In this document: positions 10,906-22,993 of the stretch, in pieces | Numbering within the stretch: the first letter of the stretch is position 1 | Layout: each line of letters begins with the position of its first letter | Assembly: GCA_023475025.1 (NCBI GenBank) | Contig: JAMCWB010000058.1 | Span: forward strand, 3,331-35,835 | DNA from: Gammaproteobacteria bacterium | GTDB taxonomy: Bacteria; Pseudomonadota; Gammaproteobacteria; Pseudomonadales; Pseudomonadaceae | Reading direction: 5' to 3' | DNA length: 32,505 bases | Notes under the pieces: generated by a model | What the model was told of the DNA's origin: nothing | What the model saw: the letters and a program-made list of their open reading frames with translations, nothing else | Database searches by the model: none | Position numbers and translations under genes: made by a program

Positions 10906-10968
10906 TTGTATCCGCTATTTTATCTGTATATAGTGATTTCAATCTTGGCTGTCCACCACATGTAGTGT
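10906..10968 (+). promoter_or_regulatory. nrdA promoter with two NrdR boxes
   Basis: TTGTAT (10906-10911), 17 bp, then TATAGT (10929-10934) makes a good sigma-70 promoter with a start near 10941. TATCTGTATATAGTGA (10921-10936) covers the -10 and matches most of the NrdR consensus (ACACWATATATWGTGT). CCACCACATGTAGTGT (10953-10968) is a weaker second box. The boxes start 32 bp apart, three helical turns, which is the usual spacing of NrdR box pairs. NrdR would repress transcription when dATP/ATP levels signal enough dNTPs. Confidence 0.7.
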
Positions 10969-10969
10969 T

Positions 10970-11132
10970 GCCTTTGCGCAGCTACAGGGGTGGACGGGAA
11001 TCCGGTGAGAATCCGGAACTGACGCGCAGCGGTATTGGGGAACGAGGGTAGCCGCATGACACTGGCCACAGGCCGGGAAGTCGCTACCTGAGGCGAATCA
11101 CTGATTCACACCCCTGAGTCCGAAGACCAGCC
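10970..11132 (+). promoter_or_regulatory. cobalamin (AdoCbl) riboswitch upstream of nrdA
   Basis: The leader contains the ordered landmarks of a cobalamin riboswitch. These are GGGAATCCGGTGAGAATCC from about 10995, ACTGACGCGCAGCGGT after it, GGCCGGGAAG near 11071-11080, and a B12-box-like GAGTCCGAAGACCAGCC ending near 11132. It lies between the nrd promoter and nrdA. The logic known from nrdAB of Streptomyces coelicolor is that B12 switches off the B12-independent reductase when the B12-dependent NrdJ can work. NrdJ itself is not in this window. No T-run follows, so control may act on translation or RNA stability rather than by an intrinsic terminator. Confidence 0.85.
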
Positions 11133-11199
11133 AGGAGGAGAAGCTACGGCTTCTGAACTGCACCTTCGCGACTCAAGGTGAGCAGCGTGAGCCTCCTGG
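11131..11199 (+). promoter_or_regulatory. three-hairpin structure after the riboswitch aptamer
   Basis: CCAGGAGG (11131-11138) is complementary to CCTCCTGG (11192-11199). Inside are two perfect 6-bp hairpins: AGAAGC/GCTTCT (11139-11154, TACG loop) and CACCTT/AAGGTG (11161-11180). Together they would form a three-way junction. The left outer arm starts within the end of the aptamer (GACCAGCCAGG), so ligand binding and this fold could exclude each other. This makes it a candidate expression platform. Confidence 0.5.
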
Positions 11200-14375: not shown

Positions 14376-15425
14376 ATGCTCAACTGGGACGATGAACCCA
14401 AGCAAGCCGTCAGCAGCAGCGGCCCCGCGCCGGTCAATGTCAATGACAAGCGGGTGATCAACGGCGATACCGATATCAACCAGCTGGCGCCCTTCAAGTA
14501 TCCCTGGGCCTGGGAATACTTCATGAACGCCAACAAGAACCACTGGACGCCGCTGGACGTCAACATGGCGCAGGACGTGCACGACTATCACCACCGCCTG
14601 ACCCCGGCGGAAAAACACGTGTATGAAAACGTACTGGCCTACCTGACCACCTCGGACATCCTCGCCATGCGCAATATCGGCCTGGCAGTGATGGAAAAGA
14701 TGAGCGCGCCGGAGCTGCAGATCTATCAGGCCCGTCAGGTGTATGAAGAAGCGCTGCACACCTGGACCTACCAGCACTGCATCGAAACCCTGAACCTGGA
14801 CCAGAGCGAGATCTACAACCGCTACCGTGTGGTGCCGGAAATCAACGGCAAGATCCAGCTGGCCAATCGCCGTCTGGATGCGGCCATGCGCCCGAACATG
14901 AACCTGCGTAACCGTGATGATCTGGAAGAATTCATCATGTCCTACCTGTTCTTTGCAGCCGTGTTCGAAGGTTGCTGGTTCTACAACGGCTTCAGCCCGA
15001 TCTTTGCCCTGCAGCGGCGCGGCCTGATGCGCGGCACCGGCGAACAGTTGCAGTACATTCTGCGCGACGAAGCCATGCACTTCTCCTTTGGCCTGAAAGT
15101 GGTCAACCAGATTCTGGAAGAGGAAAATATCAGCCTCGACCCGAAAGCCGTCAGCGAGATGTGGCAGGAGTCCGAGGCAGCGGAAACCACCTACGCCAAC
15201 TTCATCCTGCGGGAGCCGATCCTGGGCTATTCGGCGGAGTACCACAGCGAGCAGTTCCGCTTTGTGGCTAACCGTCGGGCGCGCACTGTGGGTATGCCGG
15301 AGCCTTATCCGGGCGCGCGCAACGTCTCACCCTGGCTGGACGAGCAAGCGACCATGCGCAAGGAAAAGAACTTCTTTGAAACCCGGGTCATCGAGTATCA
15401 GACCGGCGCCCAGCTGGAGTGGTAA
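14376..15425 (+). CDS. nrdB: class Ia ribonucleotide reductase, beta subunit
   Basis: This 349-residue di-iron protein generates the tyrosyl radical used by NrdA. Iron ligands can be placed: Asp94 (LTTSDILAM), Glu125 and His128 (EEALHTWTY), Glu198 (VFEGCW), and Glu232 and His235 (RDEAMHF). The radical tyrosine is Tyr132, four residues after His128, so this is an ordinary class Ia beta. The ATG at 14376 has AGAGG 8 nt upstream; longer in-frame extensions run into the N2 repeat and are rejected. No ferredoxin-like yfaE follows. The next gene is convergent only 21 bp away. Confidence 0.97.
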   Translation: MLNWDDEPKQAVSSSGPAPVNVNDKRVINGDTDINQLAPFKYPWAWEYFMNANKNHWTPLDVNMAQDVHDYHHRLTPAEKHVYENVLAYLTTSDILAMRNIGLAVMEKMSAPELQIYQARQVYEEALHTWTYQHCIETLNLDQSEIYNRYRVVPEINGKIQLANRRLDAAMRPNMNLRNRDDLEEFIMSYLFFAAVFEGCWFYNGFSPIFALQRRGLMRGTGEQLQYILRDEAMHFSFGLKVVNQILEEENISLDPKAVSEMWQESEAAETTYANFILREPILGYSAEYHSEQFRFVANRRARTVGMPEPYPGARNVSPWLDEQATMRKEKNFFETRVIEYQTGAQLEW

Positions 15426-18942: not shown

Positions 18943-19060
18943 TTACAGCGGTTCAGGGTCGGCATCAGGAAAGGTCTCCACCTTGGCGCGCTGGAAAAGG
19001 AACCATGGTCAGTACCTTGACCCATTTAGGCAGGTAAAGGACTTTCTTTGAATCGATCAT
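18943..19060 (-). pseudogene. possible small or frameshifted ORF coupled to folM
   Basis: An ATG overlaps the folM stop as ATGA (19060-19057) and opens MIDSKKVLYLPKWVKVLTMV, continuing to a TGA at 18967-18965 (31 residues). In the next frame, from about 18999, a natural-looking tail (FQRAKVETFPDADPEPL) runs to a TAA at 18945-18943. A single extra base near the CCTTTTCC run would join the two into one protein of about 38 residues. It may instead be an intact 31-residue peptide, or chance. I recognise no family. Confidence 0.3.
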
Positions 19061-19734
19061 TTCAGGTGACGCCCGCCGTTGACGACTATGTTGGAGCCGG
19101 TCATGAAGTTGGCCTGCATGATGTAGTCAACGGTTGTAATGATGGGTTCTGAGCCCGGTTCAATGGCAATCCTGGATTTGCGCACTGTGCGGGCCTGATA
19201 GTCGGCATCGCTGCCTTCTTTCAGGTACAGCAAACCGGGAGAAATCGCATTGACGCGGACACTGGGCGGGAACAGTTTGGCAAAGGACAGGGTTGTGTTC
19301 AGCAAGGCGGTCTTGGCCGCGGCATAAGCGACATGATTTTTGCTGCCGCGCGTCGCGGTGTCATCGCATATATTGATGATATCGAAACGTGGAGCGCGGG
19401 TAATGAGTTCGCTGAGCGCCAGATTGATGCGTATTGGCGTACTCACGTGCAGCGCCAGCATGGCATCAATATTGTCCACCGTGTCATCCAGCCAGAGCGA
19501 GGCGTTATGGATGATGGCACGCAGGTTCGGATGCTGCTGCTTGACATGCTTGATCAGGGCCGCAACATCGTCAGCGCGGGTCAGGTCAGCGCACTGATAG
19601 TCCACACCTTTGATGGGCTGCCGCGGTGGCGTGCGGGATACGCCTACCACCTGGTAGCCGGCTTGTTGCAGGTGCGCAGCCAGGTCATGTCCGACACGTT
19701 TGTTACAGCCAGTCAGAAGGATTGATGCGGTCAT
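19057..19734 (-). CDS. folM: dihydromonapterin reductase, SDR family
   Basis: This 225-residue short-chain dehydrogenase begins MTASILLTGCNKRVGHDLAA. The nucleotide loop is TGCNKRVG (residues 8-15), the catalytic Tyr137-x3-Lys141 lies in VAYAAAKTALLN, and the C-terminus has the SDR ending TGSNIVVNGGRHLK. FolM reduces dihydromonapterin to tetrahydromonapterin, the cofactor of phenylalanine hydroxylase in Pseudomonas, and can reduce dihydrofolate weakly. In P. aeruginosa folM neighbours folE1 and folX. Here folE is directly upstream (gap 8 bp), but folX is absent from the window. The start ATG has a weak ribosome binding site, and a TTG at 19746 overlapping folE is an alternative. Confidence 0.88.
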   Translation of the reverse strand: MTASILLTGCNKRVGHDLAAHLQQAGYQVVGVSRTPPRQPIKGVDYQCADLTRADDVAALIKHVKQQHPNLRAIIHNASLWLDDTVDNIDAMLALHVSTPIRINLALSELITRAPRFDIINICDDTATRGSKNHVAYAAAKTALLNTTLSFAKLFPPSVRVNAISPGLLYLKEGSDADYQARTVRKSRIAIEPGSEPIITTVDYIMQANFMTGSNIVVNGGRHLK

Positions 19735-19742
19735 TGGCTGGA

Positions 19743-20297
19743 TCAACTGATCAGTTGCAGGAATTCCTGGCGCGTATTCACTGACTCACGGAACATGCCG
19801 AGCATGACCGAGGTGCGCATCAGTGAGTTCTGTTTCTGTACGCCTCGCATCATCATGCACATGTGTTTGGCTTCGATAATCACGCCAACCCCTTTGGCAT
19901 TGGTCACCGATTGCACTGCATTGGCAATCTGCAGGGTCAGGTTTTCCTGGATCTGCAGGCGGCGGGCATACATATCGACAATACGGGCAACCTTGGACAG
20001 ACCGACGACCTTGCCTTGTGGCAGGTAAGCTACATGGGCCTTGCCGATAAAGGGCAGCATGTGGTGCTCGCACATGGAGTACAGCTCGATGTCCTTGACG
20101 ATGACCATCTCGTCATTGTCCGAATCAAACAGCGCGCCGTTGACGATCTCATCCAGCGTTTGCTCATACCCGTGACAGAGAAACTGCATGGCTTTAGCAG
20201 CGCGCTTGGGCGTGTCTTTAAGGCCTCCGCGCTCCGGATCTTCGCCCAGATTGGTCAATATCTGGTGGTAGTTGTCAGTCAATTTGTCCAGGCTCAT
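19743..20297 (-). CDS. folE: GTP cyclohydrolase I
   Basis: This 184-residue enzyme makes dihydroneopterin triphosphate from GTP, the first step of folate and pterin synthesis. The zinc site is visible as Cys76 and His79 in [10 protein letters not shown] and Cys147 in KHMCMMMRG. This is the zinc-dependent IA type. The ATG at 20297 gives the family start [14 protein letters not shown]; a 15-residue in-frame extension is rejected. folM follows 8 bp later. The upstream spacer contains a long inverted repeat. In P. putida a folE copy belongs to the light-induced PplR regulon, and here the gene lies one kilobase from a PplR/LOV-like pair; light control is only inference. Confidence 0.96.
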
Positions 20298-20383
20298 GCT
20301 GATCTCGTCGTGGCTATCGATTGAGGGCAACAATGCTAGCACGCTTTATAAAACAGCGGGATGCATGCATTGCGCAATGTCAG

Positions 20384-20448
20384 GTTCAGGCCATGGCCAT
20401 CGACTACCGGGGTACCGCCGGCAAGGTAGTGATGGTCATGACCTGAAC
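20384..20448. repeat. long imperfect inverted repeat upstream of folE
   Basis: Left arm 20384-20408 and right arm 20425-20448 pair at 22 of 24 positions with one bulged base and a 16-nt loop containing GTACCGCCGG. Both mismatches are G:U wobbles if the plus strand is transcribed. The right arm runs into ACCTGAACACAGGT and then TATACT (20455-20460) and TGTACA (20462-20467). It could be a leader fold, a regulatory dyad or a dispersed palindrome. Confidence 0.6.
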
Positions 20449-20549
20449 ACAGGTTATACTATGTACAAAGCTTATGCAGTAATTGTTTTCTGTAAAAGTA
20501 TTGTGCTGAATATGTCAGCGTTTTTCGGGTTTATGGGTTGGAGGATGCC

Positions 20550-20837
20550 ATGCAGTTGTCTGCGTTGAAAAAGGCCCGCCAGCAAGAGGCTGGCTTGAGC
20601 GTAGAAATTATCAGTCACAGCTGCCTGGGCAAGTTTCTGGCCTCGGTGCGGCTGAGTGATGGGGGGCGGGTATTGTTGCGCGATCGTCGTGGCCAGCCTA
20701 AAGTCTGGCTGGCGCTGGATCGAGTAAAGCGAGATCTGGGTCGTCAGGGCATTACCGACAGCGAGCTGAACCTGTGTGTGGCTCAGGATGAAGTCATTCG
20801 CCAGCCGGGCATGCCGGCTCAGGTCTGGGATGCCTGA
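20550..20837 (+). CDS. small hypothetical protein, DUF6482-like
   Basis: This 95-residue protein begins MQLSALKKARQQEAGLSVEI. It has no signal or membrane segment. The central stretch (GGRVLLRDRRGQPKVWLALDRVKRDLG) resembles small Pseudomonas proteins I associate with DUF6482; I cannot confirm that without a profile search. GGAGG lies 5 nt before the ATG, and an in-frame TTG four codons upstream is unlikely as the start. It reads towards the DCC1-like gene (19 bp between the stops) and away from folE. The function is unknown. Confidence 0.75.
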   Translation: MQLSALKKARQQEAGLSVEIISHSCLGKFLASVRLSDGGRVLLRDRRGQPKVWLALDRVKRDLGRQGITDSELNLCVAQDEVIRQPGMPAQVWDA

Positions 20838-20855
20838 GCGGGCAGATAGTCATCG

Positions 20856-21284
20856 TCAGTCAGTCTTGTCGCGCTTGATCTCACACTGGCCGCTGCCGCA
20901 GCGCTCTTCACTGGGCATGGGCACCAGCCTGGCCAGCCCGGGACGCAGGCGACAAAAGCCCCGGTAGGCGGCTTGCCACAAGGGGCGTGCCCAGCGCCAG
21001 CGGAGTGGGCGGACCAGCCAGCCGAGACCGACGGCGCGGTAGCTCCAGTAGGTAGCATCAATACCGGTAACCAGGTGTTGGTCAGCAAATTGCGCATGCA
21101 GGCAATCCAGCATCTGTTCACGGCTGCGGCCAGGCAGAGGTGCCGTGGCTGCATCGCTGATGTCGATCAGCTGCAGGCGATCCGGGGTGTGGCGCCGGCG
21201 GAACATGCGGATCTCGCGCACGCAGAGAGGACACTCGCCGTCGTAATACAAGGTCAAGGGCCATTGTGGGCTGAAAGCAGCCAT
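20856..21284 (-). CDS. DCC1-like thiol-disulfide oxidoreductase (DUF393)
   Basis: This 142-residue protein begins MAAFSPQWPLTLYYDGECPL. The defining motif YYDGECPLC with the thioredoxin-like Cys18-x2-Cys21 is at the N-terminus, and a later RAVGLGWLVRPL segment fits the family. DUF393 proteins are predicted thiol-disulfide oxidoreductases of uncertain substrate. GAGG lies 9 nt before the ATG. The gene is divergent from the MerR/LitR-like regulator across 101 bp holding TGTACA-type repeats, so it is a likely target of that regulator. Confidence 0.85.
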   Translation of the reverse strand: MAAFSPQWPLTLYYDGECPLCVREIRMFRRRHTPDRLQLIDISDAATAPLPGRSREQMLDCLHAQFADQHLVTGIDATYWSYRAVGLGWLVRPLRWRWARPLWQAAYRGFCRLRPGLARLVPMPSEERCGSGQCEIKRDKTD

Positions 21285-21297
21285 AGTCGTGTCCTCA

Positions 21298-21327
21298 TGT
21301 AACAAAGTTCTGTACAATACCCGTACA
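21298..21327. promoter_or_regulatory. TGTACA-type repeats in the DUF393/MerR divergent promoter
   Basis: TGTACA (21311-21316), 5 bp, then CGTACA (21322-21327) make an 11-bp-period direct repeat, with a weaker TGTAAC at 21298-21303. GTACAAT occurs twice. The hexamer resembles the half-site of the P. putida PplR1 operator, whose published consensus has a 12-bp spacer; that spacing is not found here. This is a likely autoregulatory operator of the MerR protein. Confidence 0.5.
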
Positions 21328-21385
21328 ATCTAGGGTGTTGCCAGCCACAGGTAAAGTCACACGTTTGCAGGGTGCGTAAGTAAAT

Positions 21386-22348
21386 ATGACCGATGACAGC
21401 CAGGACGAATTTGCGCCGACCGGCACGCCGTTGGACGATGCCGATCTGTTTCCGATTCGTGAGGTAGCGCGAATGACCGGTGTCAATCCGGTGACCCTGA
21501 GGGCCTGGGAGCGCCGTTATGGGCTGTTGACGCCGCATCGTACCGAGAGCGGCCACCGTCTGTATTCCATGGCTGACGTTGAGCGGGTCCGCGCTGTCAT
21601 GGCCTGGATCGAACGTGGTGTGGCGGTGAGCAAGGTCGCCACCATCATTGATCGTACCCCGCGCCCCGAGAGCATGCCGCGCCCGTTGGCCAGTCCGCCG
21701 GCAGACCTGCCCCAGGGGTCGGAAATGGAGTCCTGGCAGAACCGTCTGGCGCAAGCGGCCAATGACGGCAATCTGCGTCAGCTGGACAGCATCTATGGCC
21801 AGCTGCATGCCAGCTTTCCGCTGGCAGTGGTGATCTGTGAGGTTTTGCGCCCGGTCTGGCAAAGCTTGCGTGGTAATTTGAACAGCCAGCCTGGTGTTGC
21901 CTGGCTACTGCTGGACAGCTTCCTGACTGCCCGTTTAACCCAGCGCGCAAGCTTTATGGCGGGTCATCGCCATGTGCTGCTGGTGAATTTATCGGGCCCG
22001 CAACAGCCCTTTGATCTGCTGTGTGCTGCCAGCCTTGTGGCTGCCACGGAAACGGATGTAGTGTGCCTGCGTGAAGCACCGCCGGTACTTGATCTTGCGG
22101 TATTGGCCGAGCGTACGGGGGCCGCGGCAGTGGTGCTGTTCAGTGATCGAGCGCAGGATACTGACATGCTGGCCAAGCAACTGCCGCGCCTGGAACAGTC
22201 ATTGGCATGTCCGTTGGTCATGCTCGGGGGCTGCTGTGAGGCGCAGGAGTCGGCGCTGGAAAAAGCGGGATTGCATGTGCTGGGTGAGATATCCAGTGCC
22301 TTGCCGCGCCGGCTGGCGGCCTTGTTGGCAGGGCGGCTGGACCATTGA
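21386..22348 (+). CDS. MerR-family regulator, LitR/CarH-like, class II (PplR type)
   Basis: This is a 320-residue protein. The MerR winged helix (about residues 22-90) contains FPIREVARMTGVNPVTLRAW, RYGLL and ESGHRLYS. A helical region and a Rossmann-like domain follow (about 130-310), as in B12-sensing LitR/CarH. The B12 ligands are missing: no W-x9-EH in the helical part and no DxHxxG in the Rossmann part (VNLSGPQQ occupies that place). That is the class II state, in which light is sensed by a partner LOV protein. A short LOV gene lies convergently 204 bp downstream. Family members control photolyase, folE and other light-induced genes. Its own upstream region has TGTACA repeats. The assignment to PplR is from recalled literature and context. 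Confidence 0.88.
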   Translation: MTDDSQDEFAPTGTPLDDADLFPIREVARMTGVNPVTLRAWERRYGLLTPHRTESGHRLYSMADVERVRAVMAWIERGVAVSKVATIIDRTPRPESMPRPLASPPADLPQGSEMESWQNRLAQAANDGNLRQLDSIYGQLHASFPLAVVICEVLRPVWQSLRGNLNSQPGVAWLLLDSFLTARLTQRASFMAGHRHVLLVNLSGPQQPFDLLCAASLVAATETDVVCLREAPPVLDLAVLAERTGAAAVVLFSDRAQDTDMLAKQLPRLEQSLACPLVMLGGCCEAQESALEKAGLHVLGEISSALPRRLAALLAGRLDH

Positions 22349-22393
22349 GACACATCTTGTTGCGAGCTTGGGGTGGTTATCTTTAACTTAAGC

Positions 22394-22430
22394 TATACAA
22401 AAAAAAGCGTACCTGTATATTGTTTGTACA
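22394..22430 (+). promoter_or_regulatory. promoter/operator-like element between merR and LOV genes
   Basis: TATACA (22394-22399) and TGTATA (22414-22419) form a dyad with 14 bp between. TGTACA (22425-22430) follows 5 bp after TGTATA. The TGTAYA-N5-TGTACA unit has the same spacing as the pair upstream of merR. TGTATAT could serve as a -10, but no good -35 is visible, which is usual for MerR-activated promoters. The surrounding sequence is unusually AT-rich. Confidence 0.45.
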
Positions 22431-22515
22431 TGGTTGGCGCGCAAGCACTAACCACTCTGATATACAGCTGCGCACCCCGGTAGCCGCCTTCCCCTTTGGG
22501 CTACCGGGGTTTTTT
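22427..22515 (+). ncRNA. candidate small RNA between merR and the LOV gene
   Basis: Downstream of the promoter-like element, a transcript starting near 22427 would run about 90 nt to a strong terminator. A 5' hairpin (TGGTT/AACCA, 22430-22453) and the terminator stem leave a C-rich loop GCCTTCCCCTTTG exposed, a common shape for RNAs that pair with ribosome binding sites. No open reading frame of note is present. I do not recognise a named family. The alternative is a long merR 3' UTR. Confidence 0.4.
22475..22515 (+). terminator. intrinsic terminator
   Basis: CCCCGGTAGCC (22475-22485) pairs perfectly with GGCTACCGGGG (22499-22509) across a 13-nt loop, and six T follow (22510-22515). The T-run is on the plus strand, so it ends merR or small-RNA transcription, not the LOV gene. 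It is 127 bp beyond the merR stop. Confidence 0.9.
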
Positions 22516-22552
22516 ATGTCACCCGTTTTGCTGCATCAGTAGCTGAGAATAT

Positions 22553-22993
22553 TCAGTTGGTGCTTTTGCCCTGTTTGAGCTGGAGTAGTTCTTCCTGTAA
22601 CTCCTCGACCCGTTGCTGGGCTTCTACCTGCTCGGTGACATCTTTCTGAATCCCGATAAAGTAGGTCAGCTGGTCGGTTTCGTTATACACCGGCGTGATC
22701 GACAGTTCGTTCCAGAACATGGAACCGTCTTTGCGGTAGTTGCGCAGCACCTGGCGGCAGGGTTTGCCGGCCTTGACGGCCTCACGGATGGCGTGCAGGC
22801 CTGGCTGATCACGGTCGCCCTTTTGCAGGAATCGGCAATCCTGATAGAGGATGTCTTCCGAGCTGTAGCCAGTCAGGTCCTCAAAGGCCTTGTTGACGTA
22901 GATCAGAATGTTGTCGTCACCTTCCTGTTCAGCAACCACAATGCCGTCATTTGATGCGTTGACGACAAGTTGCAGTAATTTGGCATTGATCAT
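22553..22993 (-). CDS. short LOV-domain blue-light photoreceptor (PpSB-LOV type)
   Basis: This is a 146-residue protein: one LOV/PAS domain (about residues 15-118) with N- and C-terminal helices and no output domain. The photoactive cysteine is Cys53 in YQDCRFLQ, at the same number as in P. putida PpSB1-LOV. Asn-containing flavin motifs (NYRKDG, WNELSITPV, YFIGIQKDVT) are intact. Arg61, which contacts the FMN phosphate, is kept; residue 66, Arg in PpSB1-LOV, is Leu. The C-terminal helix (EQVEAQQRVEELQEELLQLK) should mediate dimerisation. In P. putida such proteins are needed for light induction through PplR regulators, and a PplR-like gene is adjacent here. GGGGGAAG lies about 10 nt before the ATG. 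Confidence 0.95.
   Translation of the reverse strand: MINAKLLQLVVNASNDGIVVAEQEGDDNILIYVNKAFEDLTGYSSEDILYQDCRFLQKGDRDQPGLHAIREAVKAGKPCRQVLRNYRKDGSMFWNELSITPVYNETDQLTYFIGIQKDVTEQVEAQQRVEELQEELLQLKQGKSTN

Follow-up and report, generated by a model that had tools for sequence, protein, structure and literature searches.

We analysed a 32,505 nt stretch of a draft gammaproteobacterial genome of the Pseudomonadaceae (3.1 Mb in 71 contigs; stretch G000:C41:3331-35835, hereafter the window, whose numbering is used throughout) and found, between a litR regulator gene and the gene of a short LOV photoreceptor, a group of LitR-type operator half-sites directly preceding a conserved, terminator-like element. 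The locus is likely a blue-light switch, and on balance we favour the prediction that the element is made as a small RNA (sRNA) of about 88 nt which is derepressed by light. More tentatively, and with slightly more doubt than conviction, we propose that it represents a new family of sRNAs governed by LitR and the short LOV protein, which would have arisen several times when a light-controlled acyl-CoA dehydrogenase (ACAD) messenger RNA (mRNA) lost its coding sequence by deletion, such that the operator-promoter became fused to the conserved 3' element; intact gene, half-deleted gene and finished sRNA gene would then coexist. The operator array and RNA element together (22394-22515) are the most unusual feature of the locus and were absent from the original prediction, a note made from the letters of the window, which had described a candidate blue-light response module around the two genes.

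The litR gene (21386-22348, plus strand) and the LOV gene (22553-22993, minus strand) converge, as the original prediction had stated. Because a gap between convergent genes needs no operator, it is noteworthy that this one holds an array of three plus-strand half-sites, TATACA, TGTATA and TGTACA (22394-22430; beginning at 22394, 22414 and 22425), and that a fourth, TATACA, lies inside the predicted RNA. A sigma-70-like match, TATACA-N16-TATATT (22394-22421), overlaps the array. The candidate sRNA extends from 22428, a start placed by the -10-like hexamer, to 22515 on the plus strand. Its conserved core (22468-22515) comprises CTGCGC (22468-22473), a terminator stem (22474-22485 pairing with 22499-22510), a C-rich loop and a T-run, and the fold of 22423-22515 has a z-score of -3.47. 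The element thus combines a rho-independent terminator with a conserved structure, and separate transcription is predicted from the half-sites, the promoter-like match and the terminator taken together.

Across 11 genomes of the genus, window included, mean pairwise identity is 0.829 within the element but falls to 0.267 over the preceding 45 nt and to 0.25 over the following 45 nt; at the third codon positions of the LOV gene it is 0.553. Since identity in the element exceeds that of its flanks and of the LOV third positions, these alignments point to selection on the element. The stem also covaries. With 16 sequences, both partners had changed in 7 of the 12 pairs, a count reached by 1 of 500 shuffles and compared with 0-3 pairs in slid controls. 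There were 18 covarying cells, compared with a mean of 5.6 in shuffles (none of 500 reached 18) and no more than 5 in slid controls. In an alignment of 49 matches (45 distinct), which was fitted to the RNA model, there were 69 cells against 25.6 in shuffles, again with 0 of 500 as high. CTGCGC is retained in 46 of these 49 matches.

Half-sites, defined as T[GA]TACA or TGTATA, were counted in 38 loci (25 of the window's genus and 13 others), with five genus loci of divergent LOV/LitR order left out of the densities. The highest density of all regions counted was found from litR to the next gene, at 10.81 per kb; half-sites were present there in 23 of 35 loci, and all 23 had at least two. The 150 bp upstream of litR had 9.82 per kb (at least one in 34 of 38 loci) and the pterin promoter 6.10 per kb (at least one in 37 of 37). 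Control densities per kb were 0.03 in the litR open reading frame (ORF), 0.27 in the LOV ORF, 0.23 in the LOV-mioC gap, 0.15 in the folE ORF, 1.04 in the ald ORF, 0.64 in the DUF1244 ORF, 0.06 in the mioC ORF and 0 in the crp-ald gap. Within the genus, all 11 loci that bear the element have at least two half-sites in the 200 bp after litR, compared with 1 of 13 that lack it (Fisher p 4.8e-6, a value which ignores kinship and leaves out six of 30 loci, five for divergent order and one cut off).

Two RNA models were used to follow the element through other genomes. R1, built on 11 sequences, matched 12 of 37 genus genomes with one strong copy each (64-82 bits); the element occupies the litR-LOV position in 11 loci, including the window, and the twelfth is on a contig without litR. 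Among 390 genomes of the order, R1 gave 12 matches, namely the own genome, four family members (38-44 bits) and seven outside the family (32-35 bits); the last seven have no CTGCGCA beside the stem, look like chance terminators and were rejected. R2, built on 16 sequences, matched 59 of 398 family genomes, which belong to 5 of the 19 genera. LOV was matched at E 1e-40 in 307 of the 398, including all 59 element-bearing genomes (tables compared by eye).

Outside the genus, the element often follows an ACAD gene of approximately 592 codons. A protein search, which does not depend on the RNA model (E 1e-290 or better), identified ACAD orthologues with 83-100% identity in 35 of the 398 family genomes; 33 of them have an R2 match adjoining the end of the ACAD ORF. 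The motif TGCGC[AT] starts 7-59 nt past the last sense codon in 29 of the 30 ACAD loci read. At least two half-sites lie within 150 bp upstream of ACAD in all 30 loci counted, and half-sites are likewise upstream of ACAD in G227, G595 and G748; this check covered 33 of the 35 genomes, the other two being G694 and G706, both with ACAD and element. Because of these upstream half-sites, ACAD looks like a LitR target.

In 26 of the 59 genomes (12 of g1, 4 of g149, 2 of g151 and 8 of g24) the element occurs without an intact ACAD gene. Each of the 26 carries half-sites no more than about 230 bp upstream of the element, no intact ACAD gene separates the two, and none of these genomes appears among the ACAD protein matches. 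The distance from the start of a half-site to CTGCGC is 21 bases in G577 (L148), and in L182 and L183 a half-site ends 8 nt before CTGCGC, so that the RNA there could hardly exceed the length of the element. Remnants of ACAD were found in G650 and G607 as two collinear pieces matching the intact units of relatives, one with the promoter and gene start and the other with the gene end and element, and approximately 1.6-1.7 kb missing between them. G543 and G506 carry both forms, with and without ACAD. Losses were counted on a tree of six litR-locus proteins from 39 genomes, comprising 14 of the 33 that have both element and ACAD and 25 of the 26 that lack ACAD; on this tree G543 and G506 were labelled as having ACAD despite their additional copy without it. 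Dollo parsimony gave 9 or 10 losses according to the root, or 8 with nodes under 80% contracted, and Fitch parsimony gave 8 changes; the number could be smaller if the ACAD unit, which is found at several places, was transferred. It therefore appears from these genomes that the coding part of ACAD was deleted in several lineages while half-sites and element were retained, and we infer the same loss in the window's genus.

How such a locus might work can be considered alongside that of Pseudomonas mendocina NBRC 14162, published in 2022 (PMC9758184), where pmlR2, pmSB-LOV, folM, folE and folX are found together. PmlR2 is described as a dark repressor and PmSB-LOV as an anti-repressor, which in blue light binds the N-terminal part of PmlR2 and inhibits its binding to DNA, with Cys53 required (PMC9758184). 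Expression of pmlR2 (1.4-1.5-fold) and pmSB-LOV (0.9-1.1-fold) was near-constant in light. The window shares with this region a class II LitR gene beside a short LOV gene with Cys53, folM and folE alongside, and TGTACA-type operators. That publication already covers the litR/LOV/folM/folE arrangement together with its response to light and the mechanism of anti-repression. The two loci differ in that the P. mendocina account, as far as its available text goes, describes no RNA element between litR and LOV, whereas the window has a candidate. From this work and from the half-sites we infer that LitR and LOV control the promoters of the window. In the dark, LitR would occupy the half-sites at 22394-22430, which overlap the promoter-like match, as well as those before folE and the DUF6482-like gene and before DUF393. 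In blue light, an adduct of Cys53 with flavin mononucleotide would form in the LOV protein, which by analogy would then bind LitR and release it from DNA. The predicted RNA of about 88 nt would be derepressed and would consist, after its leader, of CUGCGC and a terminator stem of 12 pairs, with a C-rich loop in the genus. Because CUGCGC is conserved, as is the C-rich loop in the genus, the RNA may act by base pairing, and these two segments are candidates for its seed. Outside the genus, the element is often the conserved 3' end of an ACAD gene whose own light control is suggested by the half-sites upstream. The sRNAs derived from 3' untranslated regions, such as CpxQ or SdhX, likewise consist of a conserved mRNA 3' end with its own terminator; here, unlike in those cases, many genomes lack the coding part, and half-sites lie directly before the element.

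Several observations weigh against a light-controlled sRNA. The promoter match is weak (9 of 12 positions), with 4 such matches in the region against 1.4 in shuffles. The leader of 40-43 nt is not conserved (identity 0.267), and its folding clearly beats that of shuffles in only some of the 11 genomes (z-scores between -4.92 and +0.25). In the 49-match alignment, covarying pairs are not remarkably many (7, with 36 of 500 shuffles as high), the retention of CTGCGC is partly due to how the model was constructed, and the loop CCCC, present in 37 of 49 (12 of 12 in the genus), is missing in 12 and thus not fixed. Two genomes have ACAD without the element, G730, with a different terminator there, and G748, with no R2 match. 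The element is evidently dispensable, since it is missing in 13 of the 24 genus litR loci counted and since R2, at E 1e-4 and with strict filters, gave no match in 339 of the 398 genomes of the family. Finally, conservation of the terminator could instead serve the litR or ACAD mRNA alone.

That last point leads to the chief rival explanation, which we consider unlikely but deserving of serious attention, that the element is a mere intrinsic terminator of litR (of ACAD elsewhere) and that the half-sites are relics of a lost ACAD promoter, with no functional RNA. The anatomy is indeed that of a terminator, the element follows a gene in both settings, and the ACAD remnants show that deletion took place. 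A plain terminator, however, need not keep CTGCGC and near-fixed stem letters, though both are favoured by the model. Half-sites that were mere relics would be expected to decay; two or more are nevertheless found in every one of the 11 element-bearing genus loci and fewer in 12 of the 13 without the element. In L182 and L183, moreover, the short distance between half-site and CTGCGC leaves no other target of control. Both the conserved element and the retained half-sites thus weaken this rival, and a light-derepressed sRNA is the reading that we prefer.

It is improbable that only the known module is present, in which the folE/folM, DUF393 and litR promoters would be regulated as in P. mendocina, the pterins would serve as cofactors of photolyase or hydroxylase and the litR-LOV gap would have no role. 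Consistent with this, light induced folM 2.4-2.5-fold and folE 1.6-3.3-fold in P. mendocina, and PmlR2 bound at the folM promoter (PMC9758184); half-sites also occur at the folE/folM, DUF393 and litR promoters. Against it stands the gap from litR to the next gene, which has the highest half-site density of all regions counted, with half-sites in 23 of 35 loci. A small peptide as the main product was rejected as very improbable, for although an ATG at the last half-site of the window (22430) opens a short frame, short frames lie at the same place in L053-L055 and L182 has an ATG just before the element, these frames differ in sequence and end so that none is common, L148 and L183 have no ATG from the last half-site to the stem, and the conserved part is the linker and stem.

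Other identities for the element were also considered and rejected. Its best Rfam match, spanning the full model, is ErsA/Pseudomon-1 (RF01719) with 24.2 bits, below the gathering score of 50, and a 73-bit ErsA match is located elsewhere in the genome (G000:C5:21795-21916), so it is no ErsA copy; the two are alike in having a C-rich loop in a strong CCCCGG terminator stem and differ in the upstream part. Nor is it a dispersed repeat, as a search of its own genome that allowed up to 3 mismatches gave the core pattern once and the reversed control not at all, and each element-bearing genus genome has a single strong R1/R2 copy. A conserved two-hairpin RNA with a covarying leader hairpin was dismissed across the genus owing to the low leader identity and mixed z-scores, and only the core is claimed. 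The litR-LOV gap was also checked for a further copy in 20 LOV loci, of which 11 came from genomes with the element and 9 from genomes without it; L205 (G506) alone gave a match with E below 0.01, at 23.1 bits.

In the literature, as far as the available text of the articles goes, the outputs described for the LitR/short-LOV switch are protein genes, and no description of an RNA in a LitR/LOV locus was found by a search that left most subscription journals outside. If the proposal is true, the RNA output would mean that blue light acts post-transcriptionally as well in heterotrophic bacteria, and the series from intact ACAD through deleted ACAD with both ends to half-sites and element alone would document in readable form the birth of an sRNA gene from an mRNA 3' end. 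This origin is directly testable in culturable Pseudomonas relatives.

The regulator is a class II LitR-like MerR protein resembling PmlR2. It has a MerR helix-turn-helix at the N-terminus (PF13411, 4.3e-17), and its residues 9-290 of 320 align with CarH (PDB 5c8d, 3.1e-19). In that alignment it has no histidine at the ERHE stretch of CarH, which we take to be the site of the B12 ligand, and in Pfam only MerR domains score above the cut-off, with no B12 domain up to E 0.01. The earlier description of a LitR without B12 ligands thus holds, as does the assignment of the module to the PplR/PpSB-LOV kind, which equals the PmlR2/PmSB-LOV kind. A weak B12-binding_2 match has been reported for PmlR2, in contrast to the window LitR, and class II LitR is termed B12-dependent in PMC11417400 but not in PMC9758184, both in the parts available. 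The same window contains a cobalamin riboswitch (10929-11149, plus strand, 86.5 bits). The putative photoreceptor is a protein of 146 amino acids resembling PmSB-LOV, with a LOV core, N-cap and J-alpha, no effector domain, and Cys53 in YQDCRFLQ. Its residues 1-140 match 'Sensory box protein' structures (7r5n, 7.4e-69; also 3sw1, presumably PpSB1-LOV). A second LOV-like domain with 48% identity occurs in a 573-aa frame elsewhere in the genome (L094; G000:C12:11796-12170).

In P. putida KT2440, PplR1-3 act with PpSB1-LOV and PpSB2-LOV, the consensus is T(G/A)TACA-N12-TGTA(C/T)A, and phrB, ufaM, folE and cryB are induced (as given in PMC9758184 and PMC8508746); PMC8508746 and PMC11417400 name part of the same set of light-controlled genes. 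LitR-type repressors and short LOV regulators are thus common to both organisms, with three PplR and two PpSB-LOV proteins in KT2440 versus two LitR-type paralogues and one short LOV in the draft genome. Sites of this consensus with one mismatch number 15 per strand in the genome, against 4 for the reversed pattern. Three sites are perfect, two of them on contig C39 at about 1.0 and 2.3 kb from the second litR.

The pterin genes, DUF393 and the DUF6482-like gene all lie where they had been predicted, beside litR. On the minus strand are a FolM-like short-chain dehydrogenase resembling dihydromonapterin reductase (19057-19746) and folE, encoding GTP cyclohydrolase I (19743-20300; alternative start 20342; TIGR00063, 257.4 bits). 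The former scores 244.3 bits against the equivalog cut-off of 249 of NCBIfam NF005066 and is named FolM-like only; its identity is 80 and 82% in L054 and L055, 58% in L073 and 33-43% in the remaining genus loci having a match. The order of folE followed by the diverged FolM-like gene is shared with L054, L055 and L073, whereas most other loci read have folM-folE (plus folX where looked for). Compared with P. mendocina, folE lies ahead of the FolM-like gene, and the 159 bp from the latter to DUF1244 leave no room for folX, for which the rest of the genome was not searched. The DUF6482-like ORF (20550-20837, plus strand, 95 aa; start could be 20538) scores 12.8 bits against the PF20090 cut-off of 23.5 (L054 homologue 18.5), so it too is named by likeness only; tblastn matched it in L053-L055, L059, L060, L062, L063, L066 and L073. 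DUF393, a DCC1-like thiol-disulfide oxidoreductase (20856-21284, minus strand; alternative start 21317; PF04134, 1.1e-20), stands beside LitR in at least 9 of 30 genus loci (tblastn, single query) and at some loci outside the genus.

The gap between folE and the DUF6482-like gene holds a LitR-type site, TGAACA-N12-TGTACA (20444-20467), with one mismatch to the published consensus, and its TGTACA is at the same offset in L054 and L055. The divergent region between DUF393 and litR holds the pair TGTACA-N5-CGTACA (21311-21327), whose TGTACA is at the same offset in L053-L055. Because both genes share intergenic regions carrying such half-sites, DUF393 and the DUF6482-like gene likely belong to the light regulon, in which they gain a probable place. 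The suggestion of a local light regulon with previously unassigned parts is thus supported for these two genes and did not stand as new for folM and folE, whose light response was already known (PMC9758184). The order of pterin genes, forward LitR and reverse LOV recurs in genus relatives and in other genera, and synteny therefore reaches beyond close relatives, as the original prediction had proposed to examine; on these comparisons the grouping is more than chance.

A HopJ-family gene (PF08888; 18260-18595, minus strand) and the DUF1244 gene are syntenic with the pterin genes across genera. An HD-GYP-like gene lies between litR and LOV in the genus relatives L056, L061, L063, L069, L073 and L133, the label resting on Pfam for L056 (DUF3391 and HD domains) and on tblastn for L133, and a PilZ-like gene occurs in several g24 genomes (L132 7978-8607, 22.3 bits against a cut-off of 22.5). 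These neighbours possibly link light to cyclic di-GMP. In five genus relatives (L077-L081), LOV and LitR are divergent and near phrB/RudS-like genes; the 18.6-19 kb examined at each of these loci gave no pterin-gene match, and R1 matched nothing in the genomes. The second LitR paralogue is on contig C39 (L051 6966-14851), with perfect PplR1-type sites at 14865 and 16222. By order and by likeness to PMC9758184 and PMC11417400, its cluster may be read as RudS, LitR, PhrB, short-chain dehydrogenase, flavin adenine dinucleotide (FAD) oxidoreductase, DUF1365 and UfaM-like, and it is likely the main light operon of the genome. A further perfect site, TATACA-N12-TGTATA (L008 1501-1524; G000:C53:47666), directly follows a frame with a GGDEF stretch.

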